From positions 62,001 to 126,000 of the forward strand of contig JABSSW010000068.1 of NCBI GenBank assembly GCA_018902385.1: 64,000 nucleotides of DNA. The letters run 5' to 3'. Below are positions 7,250-63,342 of this stretch, one piece after another; within the stretch, counting starts at the first letter, position 1; each line of letters begins with the position of its first letter. Source of the stretch: Physcia stellaris (lineage: Eukaryota; Ascomycota; Lecanoromycetes; Caliciales; Physciaceae). Both the position numbers and the translations under genes were made by a program. The notes beneath the pieces were generated by a model. It saw only the letters and a program-made list of their open reading frames with translations. It was not told the origin of the DNA and did no database searches.

Positions 7250-10200
7250 TTAGATGTAAAACATAGTGTCGACAAGCGGTTGCCTGTATTCACCTTCGTG
7301 TATTGATCGAGTCCAGGGCGATTTCGTTTCGTCGTACTCGGCTTCAGCATTTCTTCCGTCGGGCCAAATCGTCAGGTCCTTGTAGAGATACTGCTTGCCT
7401 CGTTCGCAAGCAAGATCCGCGTATCGGGCTGGTGGTGCCACCGAGATTGACCGCGTGGCACGGCCAAACGTGTAACAGAGATCGTAAGTCTGGAATTCAT
7501 CAAAGTATTAGCGAAGCCGTGTAAGGCTAGTGGTAAGGAGGTGGAGCTGGCAGGACTGACTATGGTTTCGAGCTGCTTTGCACCCATGTCTTTGAAGTCG
7601 TTGCGGAGTACGACATAATGTGCTGGTCTGGCAGTACCTTTGAGGCAATCATGTGCTTGAAGAAAGAAATCCCAACCGTTCTCCATCGTAATGCCCCTAT
7701 CTACTTCTCGTCAGTGTTTTCAACACAAATCTGACTAAGTGGACATACCGACAACTGTACCGGGCTGAGGGTTCGCATTTCCAGACTTTGAGTTGTACGT
7801 GTAGTCTGTCTCCTTGAGTGCAGTAGGGTAGAAGCGTGTGTGATGACGCTTGCCAACGATGATAAAGGCAACTTGCACCGAGACCTTGCCCATTTTCTCA
7901 CAAGCCTTGTAGAATACTGGGACTTCTGCAGAAAGAACTTGCTCATACTGTGACTCCGAGACACCGTCACGATAGACTAGGATTCTTTCCGGCAGGGATC
8001 CGTTCTTGCTATTCCACAGCTGCAAACGTTCAATCAACATTGGCTCGAGTATACCTTCGTTCATAATTTCATCAGCTCCTTTGCGTTGACGACTTTGGGT
8101 CCGCAAAGAAGCAGGCCACTGGGCCAGATGCTTATCAACGCTGCCGACAACAGCCGCGATGGAAGGACCATTCTTGATCTGCCCGGGTGAGGGATGAACA
8201 ACATCCATGCCAACAACCATCGTGGTACCCTTCTGTAGGAAACCAAGTCGATCAGTCGGCAACAGATGATTGATGCCACCCAGCTTCAAATTGAACTTGA
8301 GAGCCAGATTAGCAATGTGCTGTGACGACGGAATCGGGCTATCTCTGCTTATAAATCCCGAAAGTATGGTGTGAACGGTGTGAATGCCAAACTTGAGATC
8401 GGCAAAAAATTTGATCCGTGAATAGACGTAAGCATCCTTTTTGTCAAGAAAAACCAGGAGTACTTTGACAGATGTCTGCTTGATTTCCGCAAGCTTGCTC
8501 ACAATGCGAGAGTCAATATCGTCCTGTTCACATCGTCAGTACCAACCTGTTGTTTGTATGTCGAAGCGCGATGGATAACATACCCAGTCATTATTGAGCT
8601 CCACGATGAAACCTCCACGTGGCCCCGTGTAATCGGGGATTTTGAAGCCATGGATGCCCATGATTTTCCGAAATTCTGCGATTGTCTCTGGTCTTACCGA
8701 CAATTGCGATGGTGGGTTGTTTAGAGGCGTTTTCACGGCGAGGAACGCCCAATTGGAGATATCACGTGTCTGTTGGAAAGAAGACCCTCTAAGATTCCAT
8801 TTGCCATTAGTCGCGTTCATCGGTTTCTGTTTTGAGTAAACGATTCCCGGTTCCTTCAGCTTTCTACCTTCCACAACAATCATATTGTTGTCAATCTCAA
8901 GACCGAATTCGAAGAGTCGTGCTCTGCTCGCTCCCAGTCCAAGGACTTTGCCGGCGCCGCCACTGTCGACAATGCGGCGAGCACTTTCGGCTGGCGCCAA
9001 GGCTGCAAACTTAAGCATTGCACTGGTTTGTGCTGACGAAAGCTTTTTCCCGTATGGCTGTCCTGGTACTAATTGGCATTCCTCGGCAGGAAGCCAACAA
9101 GGAACATGCCTCCCGCCAACATTACTGGTACCTGCTAAGATAAGCGGCAGGTCTGGTTTCGCCAGTCTTTTGCCTTTGCGATACTTGACCTCGAAATATG
9201 TGGCAATACTGACTCTTTTGGTACTGAACTCGCTTTCGTGAACATCAATCATTGCCTCTTTTGCACTGAGCGTTTCCCCAGTGATAGGGTGTCGCACAAA
9301 ACCTTCGATTTGCTTGAATCTTGTCGAACCTAAGTAGCTCGTGCTGATCCGGCGTTTCATAAGAAATGCCTCTGCGGCGAAGGTGCTCTCGCCGAAAAGT
9401 GCCATCAGAAGGTCTACAGGCCCGTCGTGGAAGAACGCAGAGGTGCAAACATTGATATTCAGTAGTAGCCGACCAACAGAAGTGCGCACACTAGAATAAT
9501 AACCTTTGATGGCTATGAGACCAGGAGCCAGTGATATCGCTTCCCCACCTTTCAATGGATAAAACTTGCTGTTCCGAGCGCCTGAGAAGACACTGGTGTC
9601 ATTCGATGGGTGTTCCTTGATGAGGGTATTTAGTGTGGTTATTGCGACCTCCTTATTGAAACTTGTCTTGGTGAAGGGTGCATTCAAGTATTCCATCAGC
9701 GCCCCCATGGTGATAATGTTGGCAAATTCAAGTTTGACTGCGTATACAGGAGCGTCTTCTCCAGCGATCATCTCGCCTTCGTTCTATTAAAAGCCCAGTG
9801 TCAGTAGAAGAGAAGATGTTACACTAGCGGGGTGGTTTGAAGAAATTTTAGACCTAAAAAACGCACCCTATAATGGACGTTGAATATTCTGAAATACTTG
9901 AATTCCTGGGTTTTTTCATCCACCAGCTTTCTCTCAAGTTGTAACTCTGTGGTTGTCACAATGGATCCTGAGAAGTCTGTTGCAGGGCTGGGACGAACTG
10001 TGCTGAAGAAAGGATCCTCAAGGAGGAGTTTGATGATACGCGGCATTTTGCGCTTTTGCTTGTCGCTGAGATTTCCCACGGAGACGAGATAGCGGAAGAG
10101 TTGTGCTTTCGGGTTGAATCGTATCTGGAAGTAGTTCGTGCGAAGACGAATTGTTGGTCCAGATACGTACTCGGGGCGGGGTGGATAATTCTGTTCACGG

Positions 10201-10484
10201 ATGCTCAGAGTAGCCATTTTGTTCTCTAAAGAATTATACATCGCTTCATCCTCCTTCTGGTGAATGTCGGCAGATGCAATAGCGCGCTCATTGTTACTAA
10301 AGTCAATAGATATCATCAGCTTCTGCTCGCGTACTGTGTTCGTGTGCTGGACTTACCGGAAGACAAAGGTATCTGGCTGGTTTCTAACAACGGAAAATCC
10401 AGTATCCAAGCCGTTTGTATCTCGTAATTTGTGGCCATCGTGGTTGGCGGGACCTCGCCCATTGCCCTGTGTCCGTTGTGCCAT
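7250..10484 (-). CDS. Argonaute (QDE-2/AGO type), 970 aa
   Basis: Six exons (minus strand): 10484-10357, 10296-9867, 9783-8584, 8523-7749, 7700-7561, 7489-7250. All introns have GT-AG ends in matching phases and total exactly 971 codons. Argonautes bind small RNAs and cleave complementary RNA; in fungi they act in quelling-type silencing of transposons and viruses. Visible domains: N/L1 about residues 45-290, PAZ about 300-430, MID and PIWI about 560-960. The PIWI domain has VVGMDVVHPSPG (catalytic Asp about 693), a Glu in the GADEIMNEG segment (about 738), LVYRDGVSESQ (Asp about 772) and PPARYADLACER (Asp about 916), so the slicer tetrad looks like D-E-D-D and intact. HHTRFYP and the TVVDRGIT segment, split by intron 4, are also as expected. 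The start is the first ATG after a 5'UTR intron, with a stop codon just upstream of that intron. Confidence 0.95.
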
Positions 10485-18329: not shown

Positions 18330-18398
18330 GGGAGCCATTATCCGATCCGTATTTGCACGTGCCAAGCCTCGGCGGACCGCGTTTCCGATAAGGCGGGA
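18330..18398 (+). repeat. Left inverted arm of the MITE
   Basis: 69-bp arm; matches the reverse complement of 18750-18835 apart from 8-bp and 9-bp gaps. Confidence 0.9.
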
Positions 18399-18749: not shown

Positions 18750-18835
18750 TCCCGCCGAGCCCGCCTTATCGGAAACGCGGTCCGCCGAGGCTTGGCACGT
18801 GCAAATACGGATCGCACGTGCGGATAATGGCTCCC
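18750..18835 (-). repeat. Right inverted arm of the MITE
   Basis: 86-bp arm. Contains two insertions relative to the left arm: CACGTGCG (creating the palindrome CGCACGTGCG) and a 9-bp GC-rich duplication near the inner end. Confidence 0.9.
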
Positions 18836-19854: not shown

Positions 19855-20865
19855 ATGTATGCTAAATCAGTTCTTCTGGCTGCTTTGACAGCCTGCGTTG
19901 CTTCCGCCGGCGTTCTTCCATTGAGACTGGGTGATGCGTCAACAAGCCTCGCTCCCAGCGGCACATTTCCCACTGATGTCCCCATTGCCACTCCAGCTGG
20001 AATCAACACTCCTCTCCTTCCAAGACATGGCAAAAAGAACAGACAAGTCAATGGAAATGCTCAGAATGCCAACGCAGCTCAAGGTGGGCAGGGTGCCCAA
20101 GGTGCTCAAGCCGGGCAGGGTGCTCAAGGTGCTCAAGGCGGGCAGGGTGCTCAAGGTGGGCAGGGCGCTCAAGCCGGGCAAGGTGCTCAAGGTGCTCAAG
20201 GTGGGCAAGGTGCTCAAGGTGGGCAAGGTGGGCAGGGTGCTCAGGCCGGGCAAGCTGGTCAAGGTGCTCAAGGTGGTCAAGGTGCTCAAGGTGCCCAAGG
20301 TGGTCAAGGTGGGCAGGGTGCTCAAGCTGGTCAGGGTGCTCAAGCCGGGCAAGCTGGTCAAGGTGCTCAAGCTGGTCAAGGTGCTCAAGCTGGTCAAGGT
20401 GCTCAAGCTGGTCAAGGTGGGCAGGGTGCTCAGGCCGGGCAAGGTGCTCAAGGCGGGCAGGGTGCTCAAGCCGGACAGGGTGCTCAAGGCGGGCAAGGGA
20501 ATGGAGGCAGCAACGGCGGAAACAATAAGCGAGCATATGGCCAACCGATTGTTCCAAGACATAAAGGTGAGCATGTCTACCTTGCCTCATCCCTTCATGG
20601 GAACACAGCTGCCGGATTCAGGCAATTCCTAATCCCTTATCTTGCTTTCTGGTCGCGAAATCTACACTGCTACTGCATAGCACTCCCTCCCACTCGCAAT
20701 GCTGTTGACAAGTCAATCACAGGAAACATGCAGAACAAGAATTCAACTTCTGGGGCTTGTGGCTCCGGTAATGGCAATGCAGCAGCTACTGGGACAGCGG
20801 GCGCCACAGGTCTTGCGAACGCTGCTGGAGCAGCCCAGGACACAGTAGCGGCCGGAAAGTACTAG
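19855..20865 (+). CDS. Secreted Gly/Ala/Gln-repeat protein
   Basis: Start ATG 19855 gives a clear signal peptide (MYAKSVLLAALTACVASAGV). After a short Ser/Thr/Pro-rich segment and a KKNRQ basic stretch, residues about 65-220 are an array of GAQ/GGQ/AGQ tripeptides. The tail is NNKRAYGQPIVPRHK then a Gly/Ala/Asn-rich region ending DTVAAGKY. A likely intron at 20567-20722 (gtgagc ... tcacag) is 156 nt, a multiple of three with no stop, so both spliced (284 aa) and unspliced (336 aa) forms read through. KR and RH(G/K)K motifs flanking the array could be kexin-type processing sites (inference). Collagen-like and silk-like repeat proteins of fungi are cell-wall or surface proteins; a specific role cannot be given. 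Confidence 0.75.
   Translation: MYAKSVLLAALTACVASAGVLPLRLGDASTSLAPSGTFPTDVPIATPAGINTPLLPRHGKKNRQVNGNAQNANAAQGGQGAQGAQAGQGAQGAQGGQGAQGGQGAQAGQGAQGAQGGQGAQGGQGGQGAQAGQAGQGAQGGQGAQGAQGGQGGQGAQAGQGAQAGQAGQGAQAGQGAQAGQGAQAGQGGQGAQAGQGAQGGQGAQAGQGAQGGQGNGGSNGGNNKRAYGQPIVPRHKGEHVYLASSLHGNTAAGFRQFLIPYLAFWSRNLHCYCIALPPTRNAVDKSITGNMQNKNSTSGACGSGNGNAAATGTAGATGLANAAGAAQDTVAAGKY
20080..20500 (+). repeat. 9/18-bp tandem minisatellite coding for xxQ triplets
   Basis: About 45 tandem 9-bp units (ggtgctcaa, ggtgggcaa, gccgggcaa, gctggtcaa variants), many grouped as 18-bp pairs. The array encodes GAQ, GGQ or AGQ. Because the period is a multiple of three, several other frames on both strands also stay open here. 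Confidence 0.9.
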
Positions 20866-22424: not shown

Positions 22425-22459
22425 ATCCCCTCCGCATCCAATTAGTGAAATTTAGCGTG
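22425..22459 (+). repeat. Left terminal inverted repeat of the outer element
   Basis: 35 bp beginning ATCCCCTCCGCATCC, identical to the reverse complement of 31574-31608. It still contains CC and CT dinucleotides, so the tip escaped the mutation seen further in. Confidence 0.85.
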
Positions 22460-23553
22460 TTTTCACGCGATTCTTTCTCTCTCACTTCAATCATCATTAC
22501 TTCATCAAATTTACGTGTATATGTGTATAATTCAGTAAAAAAATTCGATAGTATATAAACATTCAATAACTGAAATATGATTACATTCGAAATTCATTTG
22601 AAATCATCGATATGCTTTCAAATGTCTCGAAACGTTTTCAGACTTTATTATTGATCAAAGCATTCGTATGACATTTTTTTCGAATCATGATAATTTTGAA
22701 GCATTCATATGACACGCATAAATTCATTTTACATGTCATACAATAATCAAACGTTTTACGACTCGAACGATGACATTTTTGAAAATGAATGTTTGACGTT
22801 TTCGAAATTTTGTGTGAAAATTGATCGAACAATCATTTCACACACAATAGATCGATTTGATACACTTTGACGATTGATGTATGATATTTGAATTTCGTAA
22901 AAACTTTGCAATCAATTTCTGAATAAATACACGTCGATCTCGATGATTGAGATTTTTTTGTAATTGTAATGATTTCAAACGATGTATGCGTTCGTATTGA
23001 TCGAATTCATTAATTCGTTTCGTTCATTTGATTTGTTCGAATCGTGATATCGTCAATTCATTTCGAAATTGATTTGCACGATTCACATGATTCATATGAA
23101 AATTGTATTGCATTGCAATAGTGAGTTTCGAAATCATCGCGAAATCTTCACAACATGAAATCATGTAAAATGTTTTTATCACTGATCAAAACGTATAGAA
23201 CGAAACGCTGATTTGTGTGTAAAACGAAATTTGATCGTGAAATTCGATTGCTGACTCGTCGATTGCAAAATGACTTTCAAAAATAATAAACGAAAATAGT
23301 CGATTTTTGAAAACATTCAAAGCGATTTCGATTTTTCAAAATCATGATGCATTGTTGTATGACATTTGTTGATTAAATTCAACGTTCAAATGACGTTCAA
23401 TGACATGATATCGATCGAAATTGAATGATGAATTGTGAGAATTTTTTTGAAATCAAAATGATTGAATTGTTGCGTTTTTTGCAAAATTCTGAATCATTTG
23501 AATGCGTATAGCAATTCACTGACGTAATTTCATCATAGTGAGTGCATTTCAGT

Positions 23554-23759
23554 TGTGAGATGCTATGCAGAGATATAGTACTACTACATAACTACACGAG
23601 AATATCGAAGTGAAAAGCAAATACATGAAATCTGCAAAAACATATGTAGAAGATTTGATTTCTTGAATGCGTCAAATCGAATCTCGATTCTAACATTCGA
23701 TGTGATAAAATAAAAATGTTAATTTTGTCAAATGTTGAATTCGATGTACGTTCGTCACA
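23554..23759 (-). repeat. LTR (left copy, 3' LTR of the element)
   Basis: 206 bp, about 94% identical to 30932-31137 (13 differences, all transitions), TG...CA ends. Confidence 0.93.
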
Positions 23760-25099
23760 TTATTTTTCGTTTTTTCTCAGTTTCGTTTCGAAGCGATCAA
23801 TTGAATTCGTTTTTTTTTAATGATGAGCGTTTTGCGCGATCTAGATGCGCTGTTGAATGAAATTGAATTGAATGATTGATGAAATGAAAAAATAAATTCG
23901 AAATGTTGTGAAATCGATTTCGTTCGCGAAATCGATTCGTCAAACATCGTGAAAACATCAAATCGATTTACGATAAAATGAACAGTCTGATCATGTTAAT
24001 AAAATCATCGTAACAATGTTTAACGTTTTGATATTTTCGCGTATGCGAAAGTTCGTGTGTACATTGCATGCGATAGAGCGTGAGTGTAATGAATATTCTG
24101 AAAAATAATCAATTCATACGTTTCGTAAAAAGTAGTTTCGACGAACATTAATAAATAAAAAATTGTGAATTTGACTTAGCGCGTCAGCAATTTTGAGAAT
24201 TTTTGCAACATCAAATTGATATCACGAGACGAACAATTTGAACAAATCGATAGAATTTTTATCATCATGATTAACGCGTTGATGTTATCGCATATACGAC
24301 GTTTGATTCGTACATTGCATTCAGCGAAATATGCATGTATTAGATTTTTTGAAAAGCAAATATTTTGAACGAATTTTACAGATAGTTTCGCGTGTCATTA
24401 GTAAACAATTGAGAATCTTGTTGACGAACTCGTAAATGTTCAACTTTTTTGACAATCTGTTGTTCACTCATATCATTGCATGACATTTTACATTATTACT
24501 CATTGTTCAATAAGATTTGACGACAGTCTCTGAAAATGTTTTTGACACGATTCAACTTTTCATGCGACGTAAATTTTGACAGTAAATAACGCGAAATAGC
24601 ATGAAAACGAAAAATCGAAACAAAAACTTTTTGAATCAATTTGACAATGAATCGTAACGAATTCATGTTGATGTTTTTTGATCGATCATAAACGATGTTT
24701 ACAATTTAATCATTTCGTAAAACAAGTTTCGCTGTTTTTGAATTAATTTCGTGAAAAACATTCACGATGTTCTGAACATTTTGAAATTCGTCATCGTCGA
24801 CATAATATCAAATTCGATCATGAAAATTTCAGCTCGATCATTTGCAGCGATACTGAAAACGATGATAATGATATCGAGATTGCAATATATCATCGAACTT
24901 TCATTCAAACATTTCGTTTGCGATAATTGATTTTGAAAAATCGTTATGTTGTCTCTTCAACGAGTTTCTAGAATCTTTTCTTAATAGTCAGAAATGAAAG
25001 ATTGAATGAATGTGCATATCGTTGAACAATTTCAATTCATAAACGAAATCTTTTTTTTTGATCATTTTGTATGAACTCAATTTTTTGTCGTTCAGTTTG

Positions 25100-28000
25100 T
25101 CTGACGAACGAGTCGTTTTAATATGACGACGATTCAATCAAACGTAATTTTTTATTTCAAAGTTTATCGAGAAACGCGATTTGTTGATTCGAGCAATCAT
25201 TTTTTGTCTTGCATCGATAACATTGATTTTGACGTATTCGATGATACGATTCATTTTTTCGACAATGAATTCGCTCTGCTTAGTCAGCAAACGTTGTTTA
25301 GTGATCTCGTAATCATTTAAATTTGATTCAAAGATCATTCGAGAATGATAATTTTTATTAATGAAAAATGAAGTGAATTCAGTGATTGTTGAAACATCGT
25401 TGTTGTCAGCGAATTTCATGATGTTTATTCAATCAATTCAATCGTTTTGACGATAATTGCAATACAAACGCAGTCGAGTCTCGATATTTTGATTCGTTCG
25501 CTCGATTTGATCATTAATTTTCGATTGAAAAACGATGAATAATTTACATTTGATTTTTAGTCGTTTACAGAAAGCTTTTCAAACGCGATTTACGAATTGA
25601 TCATCTCGATTTGAAATGATGAAAAAGAATAACTCATGAGTACGAAATACGTAATGTATTAATATTTTGACACAGATTTGCATTGTTAAATCATCGTCAT
25701 CGATCACGCAAGAAACGTAATGACGTTTTTTGATTAAACGATCGATAATAATACAAATGACATTGTTGTTTCTGAAATCAGACAATTCAATTATGAAATT
25801 CATCGATATATCAATTCATCGTTGATTAGAAATCGACAATGAAATCAACAATTCGTGACGATCATCGTGTGAAAACTTCGATCGCTGACATTTGTGACAA
25901 TTACGAATATAACGCTTGATGAATAATTTCATACTAAATCAATAGTAATAGCGTTTAATGAGTTTCTCAATACGATTCATGTTCGAATGTGCACAAAAAA
26001 ATTGATCGTGAACGTCACGAATTATTTTCATCATAAAATCTAATTGATCGAATATTCATAGATTTTCGTTCTTAAAGAAAATTTCGTTTCGATCGAAACA
26101 ATTTTGCAAACTTACGTTTTCGTTGATGATATGTTCATCGATCAAAGTTTAACGATAATTAATACAATTTTCGTTTTCTCGATTGATTTGCATGACGCGT
26201 TCGTACAAATCGTTTTGAACGTCAATCGAACATAATTGCAATCGAGAAAATGACAATAAAACTTGTTTTTTATAAAATTCACGTTCGTCGTTTTCGACGA
26301 AACGAAATTCAAACATTTTAGTCAAAACATTCGCTTTGACGTTTTTGATTTCGAACTGATATTGAATTTTGATGTTGTAATTCGTCAAAGTCTCGACTCA
26401 ACGTATTTGACGAAAAGTGAATTTCTTGTTTGTCATAAAAATTTTTAAGTTCTTGTGATCGATGTAAATTTCAATTGATTCATCGATATTTTCGAATTCG
26501 AATCTTCAATGTTTCAGACATCGAATAATGATCAAAAGTTTTTTGTCATATATTTCGTAATTGCACTCGATAGAAATCATTTTTTTGCTGAAAAAAGTTA
26601 TCGAATGAAAAACTTCGTCGTCGTCGTATTGAAATAGAACTTCATCTAAACATCAATTTGAGAAATCGATTTTCAAAATAGTTTTACGATTGCGATCGTA
26701 ATGTCGAAAAATTGAAATTTCGATTATTTGTTTTTTCAAAATTTCGAATGTTTCGTTAGCGAAATCGATTCATTCGAAATCAATTTTCTTTTTGATCATT
26801 CGAATTAAGAATTTGACGAGTTTCGAAAACGCTTTGATAAAACGTCGATAAAAATTGCAAAAATTCACAAACGTTTGCATTTTTTTGATGCATGTTGAAC
26901 GAATTCAATTGACGATGTTTTGCATTTTTTTGAAATTCATGCGTAAATTTTCTATCGATAATATGATTTTTAGAAATGAGATTTTTGTTTGAAAAAATTC
27001 GCATTTTTTGATATCGATTTGAAAATCAATCTCTTTCAATTTTTGAAAAACTTGAGTGAAATGTCGCTCATGTTGCTTTCGAATTTTATTGTAAATGAGA
27101 ATATCATTCAAATATATTTGACAAAAATGATTAATGTATTCAAACAACAAATCATTCATGTAATGCTGTCAATTGATTGAATCATTGATAAAATCGAAAA
27201 ACAGCACATGATATTTGTAAATGTCTAACGAACATATAAAGATAATAAAATTTTCGCTTTGTGAATTCATTCGAAATTTATTGAAAATCGATATAATATT
27301 CAATTTGAACAAAAATTTGCAATCGATAACTTTAACAAAAATTTTTTCAATTAACGAGATAAAATAATTATTACGTTTGATTATGACGTTCAATTTTCGA
27401 TAATCGACACACAAACGAAATTGCTCGTTCGATTTGACGACGAATAAAATGAATGAAACATAGAGCGTTTTGTTTGAATTGATAAATTCTTTTTGAAAAT
27501 TATCGTGTAAATATTTTTGAAGAGTTTCGAATTTCTTAAACGATAAAAAATAGATTCGATTTCGAAACAATCGATTCGAATTCTTCGTCAACTCGATTTT
27601 GTGATCGTAAAATTTATGAAAAAATAGTTTGTCGATCTCGTTCGAATTGAATACACTCTCGAATCGTTTAAAAAATTCAGAAATTTTACGCTTTAATTTT
27701 TCGACGACTGTCTTCATGATTTTAAAAATTTTCTTGAAGTTCAAATCAGAGTCAATTTTTATTTTAACTAATTTTTCTTTGACGTTGTCAATAATCTCGT
27801 TCAGTTTTTTCATGATCAACGAGAATGTTTTGATTTCTTTTTTCTTTTCTTTAAATTCGATTAGCGATTGAAAAGTCGTCGCGTCAATAAAGACGACATT
27901 CAACGATATATCAGAATCGAGATTTTGTTCGTCATTTTTCATTTCGAAAATTGTAATTTTGAATCGTCGACTAAATCGACGCGTAAATTTCTTGATTATG

Positions 28001-28750
28001 TCGAGTTTTTTTATTGATACGTTGATCAAAGTCGATCTTTGAATTTCGCGTATGATTTTCAATTTTCGTTTCTTTTTGAAAAGTTTACTTGAGAGATAAT
28101 TTTTGTCTATTTTCTCAATGACATATTTGAAATTTGAAATCAAGAATTTTTTTATTGATTGTTCGTTCTTCTTCGAGTTTTTCACAGTAAAACGAAAAAA
28201 AATTACTCGAGAAAATGCCGAGACGAATCGTTTTTGAAATATTTGATATTTCTGAACGTTTGTCGACGAAAACGACGTTAGAAATCGTTTCGAAAATGAT
28301 AAATAGAACGTTTTATTCGATTGTTGAATCGAATTAAACAATTTTTGAAATATAAACGAACGTGAAAGCAAAAAAAAAATTTCAACGTGATCACAATGAT
28401 TTGAAGTGAAATAACATTCGTCATTGATCATATTGAAAATCATTTCATGTTTGTTCATTCAAAATTTTTTTAAAATCAGCGAGTGCTGTTTTATTCTGAT
28501 GATAAACAATGAAGCGAAAAATTCTGAATGATTCTGTATCGTCATTTTGAACAATATTTGATGAATAATAGATTTGATTTTCGTTTTTTCGAAATTAAAA
28601 ACTCTTTTAGATCGAGACAAAAAGATTGAAATTAATTCTAATTTATGACATACTTTTTGCGCAATTTCTTCATTAATGAAAGCGTATTCAAAAACATCGA
28701 TATCAATTAAATCATGAATCATGATTTTTTTATCATTCGAAAACAGATTT
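25100..28750 (-). pseudogene. Fossil pol region (protease-RT-RNase H-integrase)
   Basis: Degraded Gypsy polymerase region. The reverse transcriptase part lies around 26.9-27.7 kb, RNase H-like remains around 26.1-26.5 kb, and the integrase core and C-terminal part around 25.1-25.8 kb. Broken in many places. Confidence 0.75.
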
Positions 28751-28989
28751 ATCTTCTTAACTAAAAATTTACAATGAAATTCGTTAAAGATGCTATGTTG
28801 AGAATTTCGTGAACAAATTCTGATAATCTTTTTCGCGTTTTCGAAAAAGACTGTTAGTTTTTCGATTCAACGTCGAATGTGATTGAAACATCGAAATTTA
28901 TACTATCGTCGTCGATGCTTGAAAAATTATCGTTGATCAAAAAAATGATTTGCAGATTAAACATTTTTTGCTTGATCAAATTGTCGATT

Positions 28990-30500
28990 CAATTATCAAA
29001 AAGTTTGTCAAAAATGCATTTCTTTCATCAATGATTTTTTTCATCACATTTTCGACATTTTTTTTTCAATTTAGACAGATTAGAACGAGCAATGACAATT
29101 TTATACGTCTTTTTTTTTAAAAAAGTCGTATATTTAGTTTTCAAATCTTTTATGTACTGTTCATTGCGACGAGCTCGAGAATTTAATTGACTGATCGATG
29201 ATCTGTCTTTAGTGAAAAAGATGTTGATTTTAGCATCGTTGTTCTTGATGCGACGATATTTGTTATTCATGATCTGAAATTTGCGAAAGTAATCGTCAAA
29301 AGTTTCATAATCGTTCAAAGCAACGTCGACGTGTTGAAGTTTCGTTGTGATTTTTTCTTCGAAATCGTGAATTTTGTTTTTCTCATTCTTTTTGAGCAGT
29401 TGATTGATCAGAAAATGAATTCGAAATAAAATTCGCTGAAAAATTCAGTGAATTTCATTTTTAAATCATCGTATTGACGACGAACGTTTCGAAAATGATC
29501 AACATCGATATAAATGTCGTTCAAGAATTTGAAAATTTGATCAAATGATTCGAAAAAATTGCGTTTAATTTCACGTCGAGTATCGATATGTTTCGCAAAT
29601 TTTTTTTTTGTTCAGTCAATCATTGCAGAAATTTCTTTGAATTCATCGACGTATCAATCGAAATTGATTTTCAACTTATCAATGCATTTATTTTTTCAAA
29701 TATCGTAACGAATATATTCAGATGTATTGAGATTTTTATGTTCAAAAAAAATAGAAGAATCAGAATGTTTGAACGAGCGCGTTTTAGAATCAAATCGAGT
29801 TTTTTCAACAAAAAAATCAGATTGTTTGAACGAGCGCTTTTTAAATTCAAAACGAGAATTTTTTTCGAAGTTGAAAAATTTCTCGAGTTTTGATAATTTA
29901 ATAGTTTTTTTTCGTTGTTTATTTTTATTTTCACGAACTCGCTGAACTTTGAAGAATTCATTACATTGAGTTTGAGCAACAGAGATTTCGATTTTGACGA
30001 CACGCAAAATTTCGTTAATTTCATATTTTTTTTTATTATGATTCGAGATTTTGATTTTCATGTTTTTTATTTGAAAATTTCAGACTCGAATGACGATCAT
30101 TTTTCGATCTCGATCTCGTCGAAGAATTTCGAAAATAGTTCATAGCTCGTCGAAATGACTGACGATCATTGATTGAAATTGTTGTTTCGAGAAGATGTTT
30201 ATCGAATTAACGATTTTGAGCGATTTATTTTCATCAAACTCATCGTCATTCTGATTAAAATTTAAGACAAAAAAAATGTCGATGATATGTTGCTCGAAAT
30301 TTGTGATTATTCGATCAAAAACATACACGTTCAATTGTGTGATTTCGTTAAGCAATAATCGATCTTTCAGATTGATTTCGGAAAAAAAACTTGAAGAGAT
30401 CATGATTGTGAATTGAAATCGAATAATTGTTGAAACAAAAAAAAAAAATGAACAAAACAATGATTTAAATAAATCTTGATGATTGAACTTCACTCAGAGT
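28990..30500 (-). pseudogene. Fossil gag-like region
   Basis: Degraded Lys/Arg-rich region with zinc-knuckle-like remains (near 29.0-29.1 kb) at the end next to pol, as expected for gag. Broken in many places. Confidence 0.55.
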
Positions 30501-30931
30501 GACAAATTCGATGTGATGTTGAGTGAAGTTTTTAGATGTTTGTTTATGATGAAGCAAATGAATGTTGAATAAAAATGTTTGTTTGTTGATGTGTTTTTCT
30601 GATAATTTGATTTGATGATTTTCTGATTTTCAAGCACGAATGTTTCGTCAAAAATGATAAAAAGAAGAGTTTGTTGTATTGTGAATCGAGATTATCGCGT
30701 GAATTCGTCTGTTCTGAACGCTCTTTAAGACAAAACAAACGAATCTATTATGTTTCGTTTTTTTCAATTCACAACGAGTTTATTATGCTTCGTTGTTTTC
30801 GTTGAATGATCAAAATCAAATTGAACTTATTATGCTTTTATTCGTTCACTGAATTTAATTGTAAAAAGTTTTGTTTATTTGAATGCTCGCGTATCATGAA
30901 CGAGCATGAAAAAGAAATGATTTCGATATAA

Positions 30932-31137
30932 TGTGAAATGCTATGCAGAAATATAGTACTATTACATAATTACACGAGAATATCGAAGTGAAAAGCAAAT
31001 ACATGAAATTTGCAAAAACATATGTAAAAAATTTGATTTCTTGAATGCGTCAAGTCGAATCTCGATTCTAACACTCGATGTGATAAAATAAGAGTGTTAA
31101 TTTTGTCAGATGTTGAATTCGATGTACGCTCGTCACA
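30932..31137 (-). repeat. LTR (right copy, 5' LTR of the element)
   Basis: 206 bp, same length and ends as the left copy; followed by TCAGT target duplication. Confidence 0.93.
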
Positions 31138-31573
31138 TCAGTTGATTTTTTCAATACGAATTTTTTGATTGATGTGTTGAAACAATAAGTCGAAAATCGA
31201 TTGCAAAAAAAAACAAAAACAATTGAACGAATTTTCAAAACGTCATACATGCGTGACGCAATTGAAATGATCGATAAATAAATGTAATAAAAAATGTATA
31301 ATCAAATTCAGACGTTTGAATGACTTCTTTTTGTTTTAATACAATGAAACGTCGTTTTTTCGATTTCGAAATGAACGCGTTTGCATCGACACGTGTTTTC
31401 TTCTTTTTTTGAATGATGATTAGCTCAGATGTTGATTCAACAAATGACATGTTGTTTATATGATGTAATAAACTCGATTCAGACGATTCAAACGACGTCG
31501 CAATGACCAGAATAAACGTAGTATTGATGGAGTAATGGTGGTTGCAAGTGGGGGGGGGAGATCACGAAATAAT

Positions 31574-31608
31574 CACGCTAAATTTCACTAATTGGATGCG
31601 GAGGGGAT
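31574..31608 (-). repeat. Right terminal inverted repeat of the outer element
   Basis: Mirror of the left repeat. The inner continuation (31500-31573) keeps a run of ten G and several GG/CC pairs, while the matching left arm has C-to-T changes. Confidence 0.85.
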
Positions 31609-62328: not shown

Positions 62329-63342
62329 ATGGAGAATGGCTTTGGCGACAACGTCTCAAGGCCAGGCTTCATACCCATGAAAAGGTGCGAGATTGACCAG
62401 CTTACTCTACCGCCCCTGAACGACGAAAACTGGCAAAATCTCGACCAACCTCGACCAAAACCGATCTCAGAGGATGTGGTGGCTCGGTGGATGGACCTTG
62501 AACAATCGAACCTAGATGGAAGGGTCAATGAAAATCAGCCATTCACTAGCTGCATAGACCCTCAGCTACTGACATGGGAATACAATCAGCCGTATCAGCC
62601 TCCCCGTACTCCAGATCCTGCGCCTCAGTACGTAGATTCTGGACTGTATCAACCGAGCTCTACTCCTGAGCCAGCTCCTCACTATGGAGATGGCCTTACA
62701 CCTCTCGAATATCACACAAAGCGTGCTGAGTGGCATCGAGTGGCCGAGCAGTTTCATCGGGACCAAGCTCGAGACCTGGCTTTTATTGTCCAGCTATTCG
62801 ATAGTCCGGAATCGGTTTCTCAGCAGCCAATACAGGGAATGTGTGGGAAGAATAATCGAGAGTTCGCCACCAACGGCGGTGCGGTAGAGCGTTTCCCATT
62901 GCGAAACGTCTTGGGATCGGTTCCCCAACAGCCAATACAGGGAATGGGTGGCAAGAGTAATCGAGAGTTTGCCTCTAATGGCGGTGCGATGAAGCCTTAC
63001 CCAACTCGAAACATCTCGGGATCGGTGTCTCAACAGCCAATCCAGGGAAGCAGTGGGAAGAGTAATGGAGGGTTTGCCTCTAATGGCGGTGCGGTGGAGC
63101 GTTCCCCAAGCCGATATGTCCTGCCAAAGGCGGCTAATCGAGGCCTAAAGACACTTCAGTATCAGCGTTCGAGGATATCAACAAATGGTCGATCACAAAA
63201 ACTAAGGGCACACGGTCCCAAAGGGTTCATGACCGGTACTAAAGTGTCAAATAACTCACCCAAAAGGCCTATTCCCTGGAAAAACTATACCCCAGCCACC
63301 TTCCGAGATAACCCGCCATCACCCTACACGCGGCCTATGTAA
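62329..63342 (+). CDS. Lineage-specific protein with three 35-residue repeats, 337 aa
   Basis: Single-exon ORF with a good ATG (gaagATGG). Hydrophilic; no signal peptide or membrane segment. N-terminal half: LPPLNDENWQNLDQPRPKPI, a short internal YQPPRTPDPAPQYVDSGLYQ / YQPSSTPEPAPHYGDGL doublet, and the helix EYHTKRAEWHRVAEQFHRDQ. Residues 162-266 are three tandem 35-residue repeats of the form SV-QQPIQG--GKSN--FASNGGA followed by PxRN. The C-terminus is basic (NRGLKTLQYQRSRISTNGRS). No known domain recognised. Codon use and lack of homology to known families suggest a fast-evolving, lineage-restricted gene. Regulation not visible. Confidence 0.6.
   Translation: MENGFGDNVSRPGFIPMKRCEIDQLTLPPLNDENWQNLDQPRPKPISEDVVARWMDLEQSNLDGRVNENQPFTSCIDPQLLTWEYNQPYQPPRTPDPAPQYVDSGLYQPSSTPEPAPHYGDGLTPLEYHTKRAEWHRVAEQFHRDQARDLAFIVQLFDSPESVSQQPIQGMCGKNNREFATNGGAVERFPLRNVLGSVPQQPIQGMGGKSNREFASNGGAMKPYPTRNISGSVSQQPIQGSSGKSNGGFASNGGAVERSPSRYVLPKAANRGLKTLQYQRSRISTNGRSQKLRAHGPKGFMTGTKVSNNSPKRPIPWKNYTPATFRDNPPSPYTRPM
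62812..63126 (+). repeat. Three tandem 105-bp coding repeats
   Basis: Units begin at 62812, 62917 and 63022, each exactly 105 bp (35 codons), with the conserved core cagccaat(a/c)caggga. They keep the reading frame. Confidence 0.9.

Follow-up and report, generated by a model that had tools for sequence, protein, structure and literature searches.

Nested transposons in a Physcia stellaris contig

The window analysed is a stretch of 64,000 nucleotides from the ascomycete Physcia stellaris (assembly GCA_018902385.1, contig JABSSW010000068.1, positions 62,001 to 126,000 of the forward strand), and positions given below are counted from its first letter. It has a GC content of about 50% and carries genes for Argonaute, SBDS, a DIP2/Mug62-like protein, a DUF4045 protein, gelsolin and a Tle1-like protein. 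It also holds a dead Ty3/Gypsy long terminal repeat (LTR) retrotransposon nested inside a second element bounded by terminal inverted repeats (TIR), and almost all of this composite is a hypermutated block (22470..31506; GC 29%) with 2 CC/GG pairs in 9037 bases. A preliminary description of the locus had attributed this to a process like repeat-induced point mutation (RIP), directed at C before a pyrimidine (CpY) and not at CpA, and that proposal is followed up here.

The outer, TIR-bounded element spans 22425..31608 (9184 bases). Its inverted ends are 97% complementary over 38 bases, with the left copy at 22425..22462 (plus strand) and the unmutated right copy at 31571..31608 (minus strand), and 80% complementary over about 96 bases. 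The joined body of the element gave no Pfam family and no transposase domain in the three of six frames searched, no target-site duplication was recognised around it on inspection by eye, and exact TIR patterns had no matches in viral and genome contigs.

The retrotransposon within it is flanked by the target-site duplication TCAGT (23549..23553 and 31138..31142, both plus strand) and has two LTRs of 206 bases, at 23554..23759 and 30932..31137, which are the 3' and 5' LTRs, respectively, relative to pol. Relics of reverse transcriptase (26971..27435; RVT_1, E 9e-11), RNase H (26377..26697; RT_RNaseH, E 2e-18) and the integrase zinc-binding domain (25876..26028; Integrase_H2C2, E 3e-12) follow in that order on the minus strand; together with LTRs bordered on both sides by TCAGT, this order places the element in Ty3/Gypsy. 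The best relative of solved structure for the pol relic is the Ty3 reverse transcriptase/RNase H (E 6e-35), and the catalytic motif now reads YLND. Pfam searches with pol pieces carrying X at stops returned these domains, while stop-to-stop pieces gave no reverse transcriptase. A look by eye for the tRNA primer-binding site and polypurine tract of the retrotransposon gave no clear match, tRNA and Rfam scans had no hits, and a pattern search of viral contigs for elements related to the pol relic gave 7 matches, none of which was confirmed.

Loss of C before C and T

Dinucleotide counts over 22470-31500 are CC+GG 2, CT+AG 458, CA+TG 1148 and CG 507, to which the pattern of an earlier hand count over 120 bases generalises. 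With CA/TG as the yardstick, about 1015 CC+GG would be expected against the 2 found, 1121 CT+AG against 458 and 462 CG against 507; some 41% of CpT thus survive, and CpC is practically exhausted. Set against the flanks, as the preliminary description had proposed, CC+GG falls to 0.2 per kb from 120.3 and CT+AG to 50.7 from 132.9, whereas CA+TG (127.2 against 136.3) and CG (56.2 against 54.8) keep near their flank density, and TA stands at 52.5 against 43.5. TpA is low relative to ApT (474/1151 = 0.41), as it was in the earlier hand count. CC and GG are equally depleted, showing that both strands are affected, and TCA and TCG are about 2-fold higher in the block.

The preliminary description had named equally strong depletion of CpC/CpT in single-copy intergenic DNA as a ground for rejection, and outside the block no such loss of CpC was seen in the window. 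The observed/expected (O/E) ratio of CC+GG in 500-base windows averages 0.93 outside the block, with a minimum of 0.64, and 0.006 inside; among 200-base windows outside for which 8 or more CC+GG are expected, the O/E is never below 0.35. The longest run free of CC/GG is 97 bases outside the block, against runs of 5780, 2162 and 1127 bases within it. Chance or AT-richness as the cause is ruled out by these run lengths and by base composition, which alone would give 385 CC+GG.

Both edges of the block lie inside the TIR element. The last intact CC before it begins at 22438, in the left TIR, and the first after it at 31507; the mutated tract starts between 22438 and about 22475 and stops just before 31507, with normal CC density immediately outside. 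The unmutated right tip (31507..31608) has 17 CC/GG in 102 bases. Between 22440 and 31506, CC/GG occurs only at 28218..28219 (plus strand) and 30380..30381 (minus strand). Both surviving pairs are in CCG context, which has a 4% probability by chance from the flank shares; either CCG is slightly protected or the two pairs are later changes.

Classical RIP indices miss this context, as had been foreseen: with thresholds of at least 1.1 for the product index, at most 0.75 for the substrate index and above 0 for the composite RIP index (CRI), 0 of 127 windows were positive, and (CpA+TpG)/(ApC+GpT) in the block is 1.41. The Neurospora-type signature, with CpA as the main target and a gain of TpA, is absent from the block, as is the CpG depletion that marks CpG methylation decay. 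The CpC index of RIPCAL, (CpC+GpG)/(TpC+GpA), falls from 0.84 in the flanks to 0.0014 within the block.

Direction and context can be read directly from the repeated ends of both elements. A recount of the LTR pair agreed with the preliminary description that 13 of 206 sites differ and that all are C-to-T transitions at CpT; none is at CpA or CpG, and there are no other substitutions and no indels. Six sites are mutated only in the left copy and 7 only in the right (8 G-to-A and 5 C-to-T), and the base 5' of the mutated C is unconstrained (T 7, A 5, G 1). Counting both strands, the Cs that both LTRs keep in an unchanged 3' context comprise 30 CpA, 18 CpG, 10 CpT and no CpC sites, so that 48 CpA and CpG sites were retained in both copies; the contrast of CpT with the remaining contexts is significant (Fisher P = 2e-8). 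Thirteen CpT changes without any other change point to a burst faster than ordinary mutation.

The TIR arms were aligned over 118 columns, of which the first 86 were used. There, C-to-T change from right to left occurs at 8 sites, every one of them a CpC, which bears out the remark that a C-tract and CC pairs on the right correspond to TC on the left. Three isolated CC pairs have become TC, the 5' C having changed, and the nine-C tract of the right arm corresponds to the alternating TTCTCTCTC on the left (22475..22483, plus strand, in a transition-tolerant alignment; MAFFT placed the counterpart one base off), with every other C kept. These columns also hold 2 transversions and 3 gap columns. 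The last 32 columns, poorly aligned and excluded, have 5 right-to-left changes (1 CpC, 3 CpG, 1 CpT), 6 transversions and 4 gaps.

The composition of the block was modelled from the host flanks as the starting state, with four C-to-T rates set by the 3' base and with hits either sequential or simultaneous. The sequential fit gave rates of 8.4 for CpC, 1.08 for CpT, 0.08 for CpA and 0.01 for CpG (medians over 60 bootstraps of block and flank chunks: 7.5, 1.03, 0.07 and 0.02), and the minimum ratios across bootstraps were 4.8 for CC/CT, 49 for CC/CA and 8 for CT/CA. It matches all 16 dinucleotide frequencies to within 6 per thousand; the predicted GC is 0.286 (sequential) or 0.289 (simultaneous), and 0.290 is observed. 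The preference is thus strongest for a 3' C. It is lower by about 7-fold (at least 5-fold) for T and by about 100-fold for A, and C before G is practically untouched. Negative log-likelihoods were 22249 with four rates, 22259 with CpC and CpT only, 22412 with CpC equal to CpT, 23162 with CpC only, 23293 with a uniform rate and 30393 with the CpA and CpC rates swapped. A model with CpC above CpT does better than uniform C-to-T change, than CpC on its own and than one common rate for the two. The idea of a CpY target is supported, and the effect is stronger than first described: the LTRs, the TIR arms, the composition fit and the pol codons agree on a pyrimidine and not on CpA. As a refinement, CpC is far preferred to CpT, equal rates fitting clearly worse.

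Likelihood separates sequential from simultaneous hits only slightly. The abundance of CTC/GAG (13.8 per kb, against 10.1 in the sequential and 8.8 in the simultaneous model) and the C tract favour sequential hits. In random-order simulation the exact TTCTCTCTC pattern has a probability of about 4-6%, and it is the fourth commonest outcome if CpT is immune; alternate Cs would be kept if a C is seldom hit once its 3' neighbour has just become T.

The effect on pol follows the same context. The pol frame (24661..28866, minus strand, 1402 codons), with bounds set after inspection, has 19 TGA, 2 TAA and no TAG stops. The two remaining frames of this strand hold 113 TGA and 91 TAA/TAG, and by comparison TGA is in excess in pol (Fisher P = 0.0018). 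Loss of GG predicts just this, since TGG would become TGA while Gln and Arg codons would not become stops. There is no Gly, Pro or Trp codon among the 1440 of 28977-24660, and the whole frame of 1920 codons has no Gly and 1 Pro. None of the 44 Ty3 positions with Gly (16), Pro (25) or Trp (3) retains its residue, whereas 102 of the 358 remaining positions do; Ala (0/23) and Thr (0/21) are likewise gone, consistent with C loss. The element is dead, mainly by missense, and nonsense is almost only Trp to TGA.

The dose at CpT is uneven. The CT/CA ratio is 0.24 and 0.22 in the two parts of the TIR element, 0.43 in the retrotransposon interior and 0.53-0.57 in the LTRs; TIR parts and interior differ (CT:CA 52:223 against 373:867, P = 2.6e-4), and LTRs and interior do not differ significantly (P = 0.33). 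Along the LTRs, the first 7 differing sites are mutated in the right copy and the last 6 in the left, each on the side facing the body of the element (P = 0.001 for a pattern spotted post hoc). The outer LTR halves have CT:CA counts of 14:15 and 9:14, the inner ones 3:14 and 7:15.

At this locus, then, C has changed to T on both strands and in a definite 3' context, the changes are confined within the window to the element, and CpC is nearly exhausted. Two other repeats of the window were compared. In the tandem array at 62807-63109 (a 105-base unit repeated about 3 times within an open frame) there is no CpC or CpY bias: an apparent CpC excess between adjacent copies (11 of 22 transitions, beside 17 transversions) disappeared once columns were counted once, with CpC in 5 of 15 variable and 11 of 32 conserved columns (P = 1.0) and CpY versus CpR at P = 0.76. 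In a second array (20077-20498), 6 to 8 columns vary between C and T; none of them is at CpC, and they are too few to tell. This array is a minisatellite in an open frame, with periods of 18, 27 and 45 bases and rich in GGTCAAGGT units. Also in the left flank is a perfect, GC-rich 55-base inverted repeat (18343-18397 and 18760-18814) with 362 bases between its arms. The Argonaute gene (7738-10352, minus strand) is spread over three adjacent open frames that give ArgoN, linkers, PAZ, Mid and Piwi, which puts a component of RNA silencing some 12 kb away from the mutated element.

Origin of the hypermutation

We consider it likely that the block represents nested transposons hypermutated by a RIP-like fungal genome defence whose choice of 3' base is C far above T, and T far above A and G. 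Change on both strands, confinement to transposons, saturation and the lack of other mutations in the LTRs together argue for an active process of this kind, which is probably homology-directed and has an almost inverted 3'-base preference. By analogy with RIP, its trigger would be homology between copies. The heavier CpT dose in the TIR parts than in the retrotransposon interior suggests more than one round of mutation, and at this one locus there may have been at least two doses, each tapering at the limits of homology of one element; the LTR differences sit on the inner halves, as if the dose had tapered at such an end. Hits would be distributive, with the current sequence re-read each time, as the C run became alternating TC and not all T. 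The enzyme may be of the C5-cytosine-methyltransferase type (RID/Masc1 or DIM-2 class) with changed recognition of the 3' base, which, judged by analogy with RID and DIM-2, would be the simplest candidate. A wider claim, that the fungus as a whole has repeat-directed hypermutation of a specificity near-inverse to that of RIP, possibly through an enzyme other than RID/DIM-2, is put forward tentatively, and we regard it as doubtful.

Several points weigh against a RIP-like defence with this specificity. All results come from one locus in one genome, and no methyltransferase domain was recognised in the window among 36 scanned open frames (33 of them host frames) out of 56 listed. Two changes in the 86 TIR columns run the opposite way, one at CpA and one at CpG, and the excluded tail has its three CpG changes. 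TpA is 21% denser in the block than in the flanks. The rate fit assumes an ancestral composition like that of the flanking genes and caps the CpC rate at 18.2, leaving the upper ends of its ratios uninformative; the fit leaves CpA a low, non-zero rate (0.04-0.11), and likelihood slightly favours the simultaneous model (22245.8) over the sequential one (22249.3). In the pol frame upstream of 28866, a stretch taken by eye to lie outside this frame's gene, there are 15 TAA, 1 TAG and 19 TGA. Ty3 Glu and Gln are kept at 1 of 21 and 1 of 15 positions, losses that C context does not explain.

Among other explanations, slow spontaneous deamination of 5-methylcytosine in transposon heterochromatin whose methylation lies mainly at CpC and CpT, with no repeat-triggered mutator, would give a similar context and the same confinement to transposons. 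Such decay should be slow, whereas the LTRs have 13 CpT changes with no other substitution or indel, which is fast relative to ordinary mutation, and CpC is down to 2 of about 1015; we think this account improbable. Ordinary CpA-type RIP or CpG methylation decay, with added noise, would also put C-to-T changes in a fungal transposon, but the indices are negative throughout, CpG is as dense as in the flanks and rates led by CpA fit very badly, making it highly improbable. The preference of APOBEC3G for CC might suggest an APOBEC-like cytidine deaminase editing retroelement cDNA. That enzyme edits the 3' C of the pair, whereas the 5' C changed in the three isolated TIR pairs; moreover, mutation is on both strands instead of one, and it extends beyond the retroelement into the TIR element outside the LTRs, which is hit even more heavily. 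An APOBEC origin is accordingly very unlikely.

Two further accounts have next to no credibility. A native composition, whether acquired by horizontal transfer or belonging to an AT-rich element that never had CC, would fit a GC content sharply unlike that of the flanks with no mutation in place; the LTR and TIR pairs display the changes directly, and no functional element could have had a pol without Gly, Pro or Trp codons over 28977-24660 and with an altered catalytic motif. Ultraviolet (UV)-type damage would act on dipyrimidines, as CC and CT are. It would also affect C after T, whereas TCA and TCG have increased in the block. Native composition, APOBEC editing, CpA-type RIP or CpG decay, and UV damage are each already contradicted for the block.

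Comparison with known systems

With CpC exhausted and CpA and CpG spared, the choice of 3' base in a RIP-like defence can invert almost wholly. This would offer a natural experiment on the specificity of RIP enzymes, in which comparison of the RID/DIM-2-type proteins of this species with those of its relatives should indicate which residues recognise the 3' base. A survey built on TpA indices can report such genomes as free of RIP, and, if the RIP-like reading is true, similar species would be scored as RIP-negative by index scans despite transposons mutated to exhaustion. The outcome of the defence is altered as well: few nonsense codons arise (Trp to TGA), and nearly all Gly and Pro codons are lost.

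The closest parallel in manner of working is RIP of the RID/DIM-2 type in Neurospora crassa, with which the block shares C-to-T change on both strands, confinement to transposons, clustering, near-saturation, sharp edges and a 3'-base context. The excerpts of the literature drawn on for this comparison give the N. crassa order as CpA>CpT>CpG>CpC (PMC5496416), although in the Tad1 family RIPCAL found CpT overshadowing CpA (PMC2621366); the block differs in having CpC first and CpT second, with CpA and CpG nearly spared and RIP indices negative. RIP in Trichoderma reesei, read in the progeny of crosses, is likewise C-to-T in duplicated DNA, but its order of contexts differs, CpA and CpG being alike and foremost and CpC last (PMC5496416).

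CpT is a genuine target in several fungi, as it is in the block. It is reported alongside CpA in Botrytis, Sclerotinia and Magnaporthe (PMC4352252) and in Anisogramma anomala (PMC10998396), and in Colletotrichum truncatum it is the sole bias in 5 of 13 listed families, with TpA/ApT of 1.6-1.7 (PMC6180176), opposite to the 0.41 of the block. A transposon survey tabulating ten genomes recorded CpA, CpT and CpG signatures and associated those of CpA and CpT with RID-type genes (PMC4352252), and a 2025 survey of the kingdom describes a shared CpA preference among fungal RIP-like defences (PMC12543289). Loss of CpC has been seen in company with other contexts: repeats of S. nodorum are depleted of CpC plus CpA, CpG and TpG, with CpA dominant (PMC2621366), and Monilinia has CpC to TpT double mutations beside those at CpA (PMC8959702). 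In the portions of the RIP literature examined, none of the authors takes CpC to be the dominant context.

Mutation in Basidiomycota (Microbotryum and rusts) is also C-to-T and transposon-associated, but in the descriptions consulted its target is CpG or TpCpG, and the block spares CpG. Premeiotically induced methylation in Ascobolus acts on duplicated DNA. As far as the account in PMC4352252 goes, it is methylation without mutation, unlike the block. The nearest precedent for CpC in these sources is a table for the basidiomycete Rhizoctonia solani AG8, where, among heterozygous single nucleotide polymorphisms (SNPs), CpC has the shortest mean distance between C/T SNPs (214 bp in the genome and 301 bp in repeats; Table 2 of PMC4014442). 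The authors call this hypermutation between nuclei CpG-biased, and the tabulated spacings are not normalised; the changes fall equally in genes and repeats and extend to CpA, CpG and CpT, unlike in the block. By the Neurospora definition, which rests on CpA and a gain of TpA, the block at 22470..31506 does not count as RIP, but it closely resembles RIP in its working.

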